The notes under the pieces: model-generated | Databases searched by the model: none | What the model was told of the DNA's origin: nothing | What the model saw: the letters and a program-made list of their open reading frames with translations, nothing else | Part shown: positions 14,717-40,981 of the stretch, piece after piece | Layout of the letters: each line of letters starts with the position of its first letter | Position numbering within the stretch: position 1 is the stretch's first letter | NCBI GenBank assembly: GCA_030531185.1 | Contig: JAUNOG010000016.1 | Location: forward strand, 1 to 41,156 | DNA from: Ruminococcus sp. | GTDB taxonomy: Bacteria > Bacillota > Clostridia > Oscillospirales > Ruminococcaceae | Direction: 5' to 3' | DNA length: 41,156 nucleotides | Position numbers and translations under genes: made by a program

Positions 14717-14734
14717 AGTTAGCTTAAACTAACT
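14717..14734. promoter_or_regulatory. RGTTAG-N6-CTAACY operator before ABC exporter pair 1
   Basis: AGTTAG-CTTAAA-CTAACT, perfectly symmetric 6-bp arms, lying directly before the Shine-Dalgarno sequence of the first exporter gene. A promoter just upstream is not obvious (TTTAAT at 14707-14712 could be a -10 without a good -35). It is one of five intergenic copies in the window. Confidence 0.7.
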
Positions 14735-14749
14735 GAAGGAGGAGTTCAC

Positions 14750-16519
14750 TTGAAGAAACAATCTAACCTTTCACGGCTTATGGGATATGCGGGAAAGCAT
14801 AGATATCTCACCTATTCGTCGTGGATATTGTCCGCAGTAAGCGCATGGCTTGCGCTGATACCGTTCTGGTATATATGGAAAATCATCAAAGAGGTGTTGG
14901 ACGTAATGCCCGATTTTGACAAAGCGCAAAATCTTATCCATAACGGCTGGCTGGCAGTGCTGTTTTCGGTAATTGCAGTGCTTGTGTACATATCCGCATT
15001 GATGTGCTCGCATTTGTCGGCGTTCCGCGTAGCGACAAATCTGCGTATGGAGACGATACATCACATTGCAAAGCTGCCGCTTGGCTTTACCGAAAGCTTC
15101 GGCAGCGGCAAGCTTCGTAAGATCGTAAATGAATCCAGCGCGGCTACGGAAACTTATCTTGCTCATCAGCTTCCCGACAAGGCAGGAGCTATCGCAACGC
15201 CGATCGGTCTGCTTGTTCTGCTGTTTGCGTTTGACTGGCGGCTGGGACTGCTCAGTCTTGTTCCCGTCGTTCTGGGATTTCTCATTATGATGAGTATGAC
15301 AGGAGCAAAAATGCGGCAGAAGATGACCGAGTATCAGAACGCTCTTGCAGATATGTCCAACGAGGCGGTGGAATATGTAAGGGGAATTCCTGTGGTGAAA
15401 ACATTCGGGCAGACGGTTTTCTCGTTCAGACGTTTTAAGGAATCTATCGACCGATACAGCACGTGGGCTATCGCTTACACCAAAGACCTGAGACTGCCGA
15501 TGATGTTTTACACAACGGCAATAAACGGCGTGTTTGCTTTCCTTATTGCGGCAGGACTGCTGTTTACTCGAAACGGAGTTACAGATGAATTTCTGCTGAA
15601 CCTGATTTTCTATATCATCATCACGCCTGTTATTTCCGTTACGCTCACAAAAATTATGTTCCAGAGTGAGAATGAAATGATAGTGGACGACGCATTGCAG
15701 CGTATCGACAGCGTACTTGATTTACATCCGCTTTCGGAAACTTCATCTCCGAAATATCCCGCAGACGGTTCTGTTGAGCTTAGAAACGTAACTTTCAGCT
15801 ACGACGGTAAAACAGACGTGCTTAAAGATATTTCCCTCGACATCAAGTCGGGACAGACGGTTGCTTTCGTCGGACCGTCGGGCGGAGGAAAATCCACGCT
15901 TGCGAATATCATTACAAGATTTTTTGACCCGCGCAGCGGCAGCGTCCTTATCGGAGGAGTTGACGTAAAGGATATTCCCAAAGAAAAGCTTATGGATTTC
16001 GTTTCGTTTGTTTTCCAGAACAGCAGACTGATAAAGGGTTCTATTCTTGAAAACGTTCGTTTGGGACGACCGAACGCAAGCAGGGAAGAGGTAATGCAGG
16101 CTCTTAAATCCGCTCAGTGTATGGATATCATAGAAAAATTCCCCTATGGAGTTGACACTGTTATCGGTACTAAAGGCGTGTATCTCTCGGGCGGCGAGCA
16201 GCAGAGGATTGCGATCGCACGAACCATTCTGAAAAATTCGCCTATAATCATTCTTGACGAGGCTACGGCTTTTGCGGACCCGGATAATGAAAGCAGAATT
16301 CAGGCGGCGTTTACCGAGCTTGCCAAAGGACGTACAGTCATTATGATAGCCCACAGGCTTACGACTGTAGCAAATGCAGACCGCATTTTTGTGCTGGACA
16401 ACGGACGTATAGTCCAGAGCGGCACAGGCAGCGAGCTGAAAGGAACGGACGGAATATTCAGGAAAATGTGGAACGATTATCAGACCTCCGTCAACTGGAA
16501 GGTCGCAAAGGAGGCTTGA
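14750..16519 (+). CDS. ABC exporter-type half-transporter, pair 1 subunit A
   Basis: 589 residues starting with TTG at 14750, well placed behind GAAGGAGGAG. The N-terminal 320 residues form a six-helix exporter membrane domain. The ATPase domain has Walker A GPSGGGKST, signature LSGGEQQR, Walker B IIILDEAT with the catalytic Glu, and the switch His in MIAHRLTT. The second half-transporter follows 5 bp after its stop, so they act as a heterodimer. Exporter-fold pairs of this type under metal control include importers of siderophores (YbtPQ, IrtAB). The RGTTAG-type operator directly upstream supports a link to metal acquisition, but export of a drug or lipid is equally possible. Confidence 0.88.
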   Translation: MKKQSNLSRLMGYAGKHRYLTYSSWILSAVSAWLALIPFWYIWKIIKEVLDVMPDFDKAQNLIHNGWLAVLFSVIAVLVYISALMCSHLSAFRVATNLRMETIHHIAKLPLGFTESFGSGKLRKIVNESSAATETYLAHQLPDKAGAIATPIGLLVLLFAFDWRLGLLSLVPVVLGFLIMMSMTGAKMRQKMTEYQNALADMSNEAVEYVRGIPVVKTFGQTVFSFRRFKESIDRYSTWAIAYTKDLRLPMMFYTTAINGVFAFLIAAGLLFTRNGVTDEFLLNLIFYIIITPVISVTLTKIMFQSENEMIVDDALQRIDSVLDLHPLSETSSPKYPADGSVELRNVTFSYDGKTDVLKDISLDIKSGQTVAFVGPSGGGKSTLANIITRFFDPRSGSVLIGGVDVKDIPKEKLMDFVSFVFQNSRLIKGSILENVRLGRPNASREEVMQALKSAQCMDIIEKFPYGVDTVIGTKGVYLSGGEQQRIAIARTILKNSPIIILDEATAFADPDNESRIQAAFTELAKGRTVIMIAHRLTTVANADRIFVLDNGRIVQSGTGSELKGTDGIFRKMWNDYQTSVNWKVAKEA

Positions 16520-16524
16520 GCAAT

Positions 16525-18258
16525 ATGATAAAAAAATTACAGAGAAAATTCGCTTTGTCGGAACAGGGCGCAAAGGACTTGGTAAAGGGCATAATCGCCT
16601 GCGCCTTGCAGAACATCTCGTTTATGTTCCCCGTAGGATTGCTTTACAAGCTTGTGGGCGATATGCTGGACGGAGGAGTTAAATCGGGAGGGGTATGGCT
16701 TTACGTTATCGGAATTGTTTTCTGTCTGCTGTTGATTTTTACGGTTACTTGGTTTCAGTACAATGCAACTTATCTTGCAACATATGTTGAAACGGGCGTG
16801 CGCCGCATAACCCTTGCGGAAAAGCTGAGGAAAATACCGCTTTCGTTTTTCGGTAAAAAGGATCTGGCAGATCTTACAAGCACGATAATGGCGGACTGCA
16901 CTACTTTGGAAACTGCTTTTTCGCACTATGTTCCTGCCTTGTTCGGCTCGATGATATCTACTGTACTTATAGCTGTAGGTCTTTTCTTCTTTGACGTTCG
17001 TATGGCTTTGGCGGCTCTCTGGGTAGTTCCCATAGCTTTTGCTATAACAGCGCTGTCCGCTAAGGTTCAGGAGCGCGTTCACCAAAAGTCTATGGACGCA
17101 AGAATGGCTTGCGCCGACGGCATTCAGGAATGCATAGAGGTAGTGCGGGACTTAAAGGCGAATAATGCCGAGGAGCAGTATTTAAACGGTCTTGACAGGA
17201 AAATTCAGGCTGTCGAAAAGCGCAATGTGATCGGCGAATTTACAACTGCGGCTTGCGTTGTTTCGGCGTCGCTGGTACTCAAGCTGGGAATTGCTACAGT
17301 TGCGCTAGCAGGTTCCGCTTTGCTGATAAATGGAGAACTTGACGTTCTTACGTTCTTTATGTTTCTGCTTGTGGCGTCGAGGCTCTATGACCCATTGCAG
17401 AGCTCACTGCAAAATCTGGCGGCTGTTATATCCACCCGTACTAACATTGCGAGAATGAACGAGATACTGGATCACGGCGTTCAGAGCGGAACGGATAAGC
17501 TTACCAACAAGGGATATGATATTGTATTCGACAAGGTCGGATTTTCCTACAACAATGAGGAAACTGTACTTGAAAACGTGTCCTTTACCGCTAAACAGGG
17601 AGAGGTAACTGCGCTGGTAGGTCCTTCGGGCGGCGGAAAAACCACAGCTTCGAGACTGGCGGCAAGGTTCTGGGACGCAGATAAGGGCAAGATAACAGTC
17701 GGAGGAATGGACGTTTCGAGCGTGGAGCCTGAAACTCTTATGTCTCTGTATTCTATCGTTTTTCAGGACGTTACTCTTTTCAACAATACGGTTATGGAGA
17801 ACATACGCATAGGCAGAAAAAACGCAACCGACGAGGAAGTCATCGCGGCGGCTCGCCTTGCCAACTGCGAAGAATTCGTGCAGAAGCTTCCCGACAAATG
17901 GAACAGTATGATAGGAGAAAACGGCTGCGCTCTTTCGGGAGGCGAGCGGCAGAGAATTTCCATAGCGAGAGCATTTCTGAAAAACGCCCCTATTATTCTG
18001 CTTGACGAGGCTACGGCAAGTCTTGACGTGGAAAACGAAACGCTGATACAGACCGCTCTTTCAAGGCTTATCAAAGACAAAACGGTAATGATAATCGCTC
18101 ACCGAATGAGAACCGTAATGGGCGCGGACAAGGTCGTCGTGCTTGCCGACGGAAAATCCAAGGAGCAGGGAACTCCGGACGAGCTTATGAAATGTGACGG
18201 AATTTTCAGCAGAATGGTAAAGCTTCAAAGCGAGAGCCAAGACTGGGCTATAAGGTAA
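16525..18258 (+). CDS. ABC exporter-type half-transporter, pair 1 subunit B
   Basis: 577 residues from ATG 16525 behind AAAGGAGG, which lies at the end of the previous gene. The frame is open further upstream, but those codons overlap subunit A and lack a binding site. It has a six-helix membrane domain and an ATPase domain with Walker A GPSGGGKTT, signature LSGGERQR, Walker B IILLDEAT and switch His in MIIAHRMRT. Both ATP sites of the heterodimer therefore look catalytically complete. A strong terminator follows. The partner and substrate inference is as for subunit A. Confidence 0.88.
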   Translation: MIKKLQRKFALSEQGAKDLVKGIIACALQNISFMFPVGLLYKLVGDMLDGGVKSGGVWLYVIGIVFCLLLIFTVTWFQYNATYLATYVETGVRRITLAEKLRKIPLSFFGKKDLADLTSTIMADCTTLETAFSHYVPALFGSMISTVLIAVGLFFFDVRMALAALWVVPIAFAITALSAKVQERVHQKSMDARMACADGIQECIEVVRDLKANNAEEQYLNGLDRKIQAVEKRNVIGEFTTAACVVSASLVLKLGIATVALAGSALLINGELDVLTFFMFLLVASRLYDPLQSSLQNLAAVISTRTNIARMNEILDHGVQSGTDKLTNKGYDIVFDKVGFSYNNEETVLENVSFTAKQGEVTALVGPSGGGKTTASRLAARFWDADKGKITVGGMDVSSVEPETLMSLYSIVFQDVTLFNNTVMENIRIGRKNATDEEVIAAARLANCEEFVQKLPDKWNSMIGENGCALSGGERQRISIARAFLKNAPIILLDEATASLDVENETLIQTALSRLIKDKTVMIIAHRMRTVMGADKVVVLADGKSKEQGTPDELMKCDGIFSRMVKLQSESQDWAIR

Positions 18259-40834: not shown

Positions 40835-40861
40835 ATAAATTCTCCTTTTGATATTTAATTT

Positions 40862-40949
40862 ATGCAGACGCTCTTTCCCGAAGTGAAGTTGATATTATCG
40901 GGAAAGAAGAATAACAATTTCGCACTTTGTTATTTAGAGAAGTCTGCAT
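40862..40949 (-). ncRNA. Structured 5' leader of the eno mRNA, candidate cis-regulatory RNA
   Basis: On the minus strand ATGCAGAC (40949-40942) pairs with GTCTGCAT (40869-40862), closing two hairpins. One is AATAACAA (40934-40927) with TTGTTATT (40917-40910). The other is CTTTCCCGA (40906-40898) with TCGGGAAAG (40881-40873). Together they make a three-way junction of 8-, 8- and 9-bp stems, ending 28 nt before the start codon. It lacks the conserved sequence of the fluoride riboswitch known upstream of some enolase genes. The structure is read from complementarity only. Confidence 0.5.
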
Positions 40950-40963
40950 GGTTTATTCTCGTT

Positions 40964-40981
40964 GGTTAGCAATAACTAACC
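40964..40981. promoter_or_regulatory. RGTTAG-N6-CTAACY operator in the eno promoter region
   Basis: GGTTAG-CAATAA-CTAACC, perfectly symmetric arms. It lies 9 bp downstream of the eno -10 box, the same arrangement as in the methyltransferase and heme operons. No promoter facing right was seen, so eno is the probable target. Confidence 0.75.

Follow-up and report, generated by a model that had tools for sequence, protein, structure and literature searches.

The question raised by this locus is which protein reads a short palindrome, RGTTAG-N6-CTAACY, that recurs in a 41,156-nucleotide stretch of Ruminococcus sp. DNA (GenBank assembly GCA_030531185.1, contig JAUNOG010000016.1, positions 1 to 41,156 of the forward strand; hereafter the window). 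An initial annotation had proposed this 18-bp word as the operator of a metal or heme regulon. We find that the operator, its exclusive spacing, its placement at promoters, its company of iron genes and its co-occurrence with one class of DtxR-family proteins, class B, are all evident from sequence comparison, and from these we infer binding, metal use and repression by class B. The palindrome is predicted, with a probability of roughly three in four, to be the operator bound by class B, a two-domain, Fe-type DtxR-family repressor that lacks the SH3 domain.

All five sites in the initial annotation were recovered with a spacer of 6 bp; those at 14717..14734 (AGTTAG-N6-CTAACT), 18404..18421 (GGTTAG-N6-CTAACC), 21719..21736 (AGTTAG-N6-CTAACC) and 40964..40981 (GGTTAG-N6-CTAACC, minus strand) are exact, and that at 21535..21552 has one mismatch. 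The list was nonetheless incomplete, having missed an exact copy at 11920..11937 that brings the exact sites in the window to five. This copy lies within the reading frame of a P-type ATPase and its role is doubtful; at two loci of relatives (L026 and L039) a site precedes a small gene ahead of an ATPase related to this one. No exact site arose in 100 dinucleotide shuffles of the window, and with up to two mismatches allowed the window count is not significant (6 versus 3.59 expected, with 19 of the 100 shuffles reaching 6). Three operators begin 6–9 bp past the -10 box of a TTGACA promoter with a 17-bp spacer, just as had been described: 18404 lies 7 bp past TTGACA-17-TATAAT (18368..18396, plus strand), the heme-operon operator at 21719 lies 6 bp past TTGACA-17-TAAAAT (21684..21712, plus strand), and the eno operator at 40964 lies 9 bp past TTGACA-17-TATTAT (40991..41019, minus strand). 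No sigma-70 promoter was found beside the 14717 operator, which separates a TetR gene (14029-14676) from an ABC exporter pair; TetR-like and ABC genes adjoining a site recur in relatives (e.g. loci L024, L027 and L043).

The source genome (2.48 Mb in 121 contigs, 87% complete) was scanned for the operator and the genes behind it, as the initial annotation had suggested, and contains 12 distinct exact sites, versus none for a reversed-pattern control. Allowing one mismatch adds six sites versus ten for the control, which is no excess, and the imperfect 21535 site therefore carries little weight alone. Four exact sites cluster on one contig, C81, ahead of a DUF2325 gene (position 8007), ahead of a DUF3793 gene (8360), ahead of feoA-feoA-feoB (9105), and between a DtxR gene and ABC genes (12721). 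The feo promoter region has three further sites of the one-mismatch kind, for which there is no genome-wide excess. Another exact site (C44:5450) is upstream of a TetR gene, with a gene behind it that by eye resembles metE, and two more (C121:165 and C121:227) accompany what by eye is a secreted protein, truncated where the contig stops.

Exact sites are present in all 29 genomes of the genus that were compared (292 summed, versus 2 for the control), and with the controls at 0 in the genome and 2 in the genus, and the shuffles at 0 of 100, a chance origin was rejected. At least one exact site occurs in 119 of the 148 genomes of a family sample and in 166 of the 293 genomes of a class sample, the latter with 535 sites versus 151 for the control. 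Spacers and site pairs were counted in 162 non-redundant loci out of 237, totalling 1.37 Mb, which were picked around DtxR genes and sites, and these counts are not genome rates. A spacer of 6 gives 204 sites in this selected DNA, and none of the other spacers between 0 and 16 gives more than 3; the core TTAG-N6-CTAA occurs 294 times, versus 0–7 times for each of N3–N5 and N7–N9. Selection of the DNA favours N6, but hardly to the degree observed.

A simple open reading frame rule places 27 of the 28 sites listed first for the other genus genomes between genes. Among some 203 sites at least 150 bp from a locus end, read in both directions, a TTGACA/TATAAT-like promoter stands 5' of the site with its -10 box ending 3–14 bp before it in 102 of 405 readings, nearly all at 5–10 bp; about half of the sites thus begin just past a sigma-70 -10 box, where a repressor would cover the transcription start. 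Sites also pair at preferred distances of 34–35 bp (28 pairs), 68–70 bp (9), 100–103 bp (26) and 134–135 bp (8), in a count that allowed one partner one mismatch and took related promoters repeatedly. Spacing of neighbouring sites near 34 bp and its multiples can be seen, for example, at loci L085, L090, L097, L099, L100 and L124.

The genes behind the sites look like an iron-starvation set: feoAB, DUF3793, heme uptake, flavodoxin, pyruvate:ferredoxin oxidoreductase (PFOR) and transporters. The combination of flavodoxin and PFOR with feoAB is characteristic of a response that spares iron and imports it. We tallied one (first-listed) site for each of the 28 genus genomes beside that of the window; two sites lay more than 450 bp from any gene start, and the 33 nearest proteins at the other 26 include DUF3793 and ABC ATPases (four each), FeoB and flavodoxin (three each), PFOR and DUF6110 (two each) and single cases of FeoA, DUF2325, ZIP and DtxR, as well as proteins with no evident iron link (Asp23, a methyltransferase, an acyl-CoA hydrolase-like protein and short doubtful frames). 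DUF2325 and DUF3793 genes are common in site-bearing feo neighbourhoods (e.g. L013:8050-8961). This company of feoAB, flavodoxin, PFOR and heme uptake, along with the lack of a Fur match in the 87% complete source genome, bears out the proposal of a metal regulon, and the targets in the window (the ABC pair, an LCM-type methyltransferase/ZIP operon, a Shp/NEAT heme operon and enolase) had been named correctly.

The enolase gene (39539..40834, minus strand), identified from its sequence, is a case of its own. Among the 20 of 23 enolase loci with a readable N-terminus, the upstream site is exact in nine, present with one mismatch only in five and absent from six, one of these cut by a contig end. 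The 14 full-length relatives in the genus are 82–92% identical and others 67–69%; a second enolase of the source genome, on contig C104, is 69% identical and has no site. The search gave no enolase match in ten of the 29 genus genomes, some of them 99% complete, probably a shortcoming of the search and not a true lack of the gene. Iron control of a glycolytic enzyme is unexpected, and we note that the enolase operator is kept in much of the genus.

DtxR-type domains were found in 28 of the 29 genus genomes, and class B in 26, including the source genome, where its gene lies on contig C97 (L081:1251-1724, minus strand) and matches PF01325. Ligand positions are given in MntR numbering, and the ligand table takes 17 of the 27 genus class-B genes. 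All 57 aligned class-B proteins have E11, H77, the Cys, Glu and His ligands, the Cys being at the Fe-type position (position 99), and Ser40; Pro39 is present in 53, and the D8 position is Asn in 41, Asp in nine and Met in seven. The reading frames are ∼120–160 aa, which leaves no room for an SH3 domain. Class B thus has the winged-helix and metal-binding dimerisation domains that define the DtxR/MntR family, and the features of the EqbA subclass, being SH3-less with an Fe-type Cys and mostly Asn at the D8 position. It is also widespread, with strong matches (E at most 1e-40) in 152 of the 293 class genomes.

The sites follow class B across this sample. The 152 genomes with a strong match hold 468 sites versus 71 for the control, and the other 141 hold 67 versus 80; the Spearman correlation with class B is 0.60 for sites and -0.03 for the control. 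When 40 class-B genes from 38 families were inspected, an exact site was present within 600 bp upstream of 12 and within 1.5 kb of 16, with reversed and other-spacer controls giving none.

Several observations weigh against class B as the reader. The class-wide association is uncorrected for phylogeny, and 20 of the 152 genomes with strong class B have no exact site. Conversely, five of the 141 without strong class B have at least three, namely G259 (11), G366 (6), G452 (4), and G257 and G291 (3 each, with a control of 2 each). The first of these, G259 (loci L280-L290), is 99% complete and has no recognisable class B, and some of its 11 exact sites are at feoA-feoB. Class B was likewise not found in three site-bearing genus genomes (G016, G022 and G027; 85, 90 and 70% complete). 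Upstream of the source genome's own class-B gene there is no site within two mismatches, and of the 27 genus class-B promoters seven carry one at that tolerance, none of them exact. For three named class-B genes on plasmids (L291-L293), 12 kb of sequence contains no match with up to two mismatches. Within the genus, moreover, two other groups of DtxR paralogs, classes A and A', lie nearer to the sites than class B does.

Class A, represented in the source genome on contig C81, often adjoins feoB or DUF3793, and follows feoB in part of the loci. We found 36 relatives on contigs titled Ruminococcus, Ruminococcaceae, Oscillospiraceae or Clostridia, and the feo-linked paralog is present in named genomes including R. 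bicirculans 80/3 and R. albus strains. At each of the six ligand positions, none of the 36 scorable rows (of 37) has the family residue; 22 rows have Cys at the H77 place, so another metal chemistry may apply. Class A forms one clade with full SH-aLRT support in a tree of 125 columns made by a quick method, from which two class-A fragments (L177 and L178) were omitted. Class A' occurs in eight genomes, never alongside class A among those compared, and retains D, C, E and H only. Regulon-linked DtxR paralogs devoid of the family's metal ligands, as class A appears to be from its alignment, would be new.

It is conceivable, if unlikely, that class A or A' is the main reader in Ruminococcus, perhaps responding to a non-metal signal, and that class B controls other genes there. 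All 15 class-A and all eight class-A' genus loci have exact sites within the DNA retrieved around them, many in the paralog's own promoter, and 30 of the 36 named class-A loci do as well (81 sites in 440 kb, control 0), while class B is seldom near a site within the genus. The ratio of nonsynonymous to synonymous substitution (dN/dS) in class A, 0.02–0.10 in 17 of 20 pairs, also looks like constraint, notwithstanding that dS is near or past saturation in most. However, four 99% complete genomes (G011, G012, G013 and G028) in which neither class A nor A' was found (G013 has two weak matches besides) keep their sites, with feoB or DUF3793 beside one in each. The sites track class B across the class sample, and no copy of class A has the family residue at any of the six ligand positions. 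We also considered that class A might assist FeoB in the way that FeoC does.

The initial annotation had favoured the DtxR-family protein encoded at 25566..25946 (plus strand; PF01325, PF02742) as the possible regulator, a proposal that we regard as very improbable. This paralog is encoded in the heme operon behind the 21719 operator and retains D, C, E, H and Pro39, but E11 is replaced by Lys and H77 by Asn (two of the six MntR-type ligands), and the DtxR genes compared across the genus include no clear ortholog of it although sites are in 29 of 29 genomes; it was rejected as main regulator on both grounds. It shares the ligand pattern of class A', and the tree leaves its placement open, as it does that of the 277-aa product of 20679..21512 (plus strand), a divergent DtxR-like protein with weak PF02742 and MntR matches below cut-off and, in a loose alignment, none of the family's metal ligands. 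This second gene follows the ZIP gene, and its product resembles a decayed DtxR with an extra C-terminal part of ∼150 aa.

Slimmer still is the chance of a regulator from the Fur, TetR or some further family: TetR genes do adjoin sites 14717 and C44:5450, and TetR proteins were considered as local regulators there, but Fur gave no match in the source genome (on which it was rejected) or in nine others, making ten of the 29 site-bearing genomes, no relative of the single TetR query was seen beside feo sites, and the core and spacing agree with DtxR-family operators.

With class B as the preferred reader, a mechanism can be proposed. An Fe2+-loaded class-B dimer would grip TTAG-N6-CTAA just downstream of the -10 box and, from that position, would block RNA polymerase. 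When iron is low the dimer would release, allowing expression of feoAB, the heme uptake genes, the ABC and ZIP transporters, flavodoxin, PFOR and others. Because operators also stand at the class-A paralogs, these should be made in iron scarcity, and since the family ligands are absent from the linked paralogs they should not sense metal through the known residues. The paralogs with replaced ligands in the regulon (class A, class A' and the products of 25566 and 20679) may modulate the same sites. We tentatively raise the possibility of a two-tier iron switch, in which an ordinary Fe-sensing DtxR repressor is joined by ligand-less paralogs made in starvation. Having retained the fold that binds DNA, these would act at the repressor's operators, or form pairs with the repressor itself, regardless of iron, and so reset or cap the response. 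Such ligand-free paralogs offer a natural test of the DtxR fold acting without its metal. With the operator as a readable marker of iron control, iron regulons could be listed from sequence in many gut Clostridia, among them the Ruminococcus genomes that gave no Fur match.

The remaining genes of the window are arranged around these operators, the exporter, methyltransferase, ZIP and heme genes on the plus strand. The ABC exporter pair (14750..18258; 589 and 596 aa) is kin to many ABC models, none above its curated cut-off among the matches listed. The LCM-type methyltransferase (18480..19277, PF04072) precedes the ZIP-family metal transporter (19874..20656, PF02535). The heme uptake genes (21875..25548) encode a Shp/NEAT protein and a binding protein (PF11545, PF01497), with a permease and an ATPase recognised by eye. 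The operon's heme and ABC genes are followed by one for a YgbA_NO family protein (PF11756; 29332-29643).

The operator and its putative regulator can be set beside several known systems. Bacillus subtilis MntR has the same two-domain fold, and its E11, H77, E102 and H103 equivalents are kept in class B; MntR has Glu where class B has Cys (position 99), and the targets here differ in being iron genes. The same contrast of Cys with the MntR Glu is drawn in PMC3672683. FeoC is like class A a small winged-helix protein, and class A likewise follows feoB in part of its loci, but is a DtxR relative surrounded by operator sites. No clostridial DtxR regulon with this word was found in the literature, in a search that mostly did not cover subscription journals and included no regulon database, so that one may exist.

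A close parallel is IdeR. Its subunits occupy the four CCTAA repeats of the 19-bp box one apiece, with repeats 1 and 3 bound by a single dimer, and a half site with the consensus TTAGGN4CCTAA binds one dimer (PMC8464063). The initial annotation had likened the arms to half of the DtxR/IdeR box, a likeness that stands, while counting the 6-bp spacer against kinship. That objection fails because one dimer contacts repeats 1 and 3 and so reads TTAG-N6-CTAA (PMC8464063), and spacing was rejected as a reason to exclude DtxR. The operator is like the IdeR/DtxR box TTAGGTTAGSCTAACCTAA and its half site in having TTAG-N6-CTAA per dimer (PMC8464063, PMC10317159), and the proposed iron repression and Pro39 and Ser40 of class B are also alike. 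The inner GG of the half site is not kept, with G there in 6% of 125 sites, each read on both strands, and three GG/CC half sites in the 1.37 Mb, where the 19-bp box for two dimers has no copy. Unlike that of IdeR, our operator extends its conserved letters outward (RG..CY) rather than inward, and class B is SH3-less.

Another close parallel is EqbA, the regulator of the equibactin cluster on ICESe2 of Streptococcus equi. EqbA resembles DtxR but has no SH3 domain, carries Cys104 and Asn13, and binds a promoter whose essential palindrome holds GTTAG-N6-CTAAC; following EDTA treatment the shift is partial, and it is enhanced by Fe2+ or Zn2+ and less so by Mn2+, and deletion of eqbA raises the eqbE transcript 13-fold (PMC3672683). 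EqbA and class B are alike in lacking SH3, in the Fe-type Cys, in Asn at the D8 position and in the GTTAG-N6-CTAAC word. EqbA serves one mobile-element locus with a 36-bp imperfect palindrome, whereas the site described here is 18 bp and dispersed at iron genes in many families. A plasmid of Anaerococcus prevotii encodes a regulator 43% identical to class B, with N, E, H, C, E and H at the ligand places (by eye), that precedes thioesterase, phosphopantetheinyl transferase, AMP-binding and nonribosomal peptide synthetase genes; the gene order suggests an eqb-like cluster, and the sole GTTAG-N6-CTAAC in 12.3 kb lies between regulator and cluster, just past a TATAAT. The reading that fits best makes the word an operator for one dimer of an EqbA-like, Fe-type DtxR repressor, with iron genes in many Clostridia under its control. 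If this is true, much of a bacterial class would share the EqbA operator and the half site of IdeR, and a review calls it a matter for study whether species other than those known have such half sites (PMC10317159).

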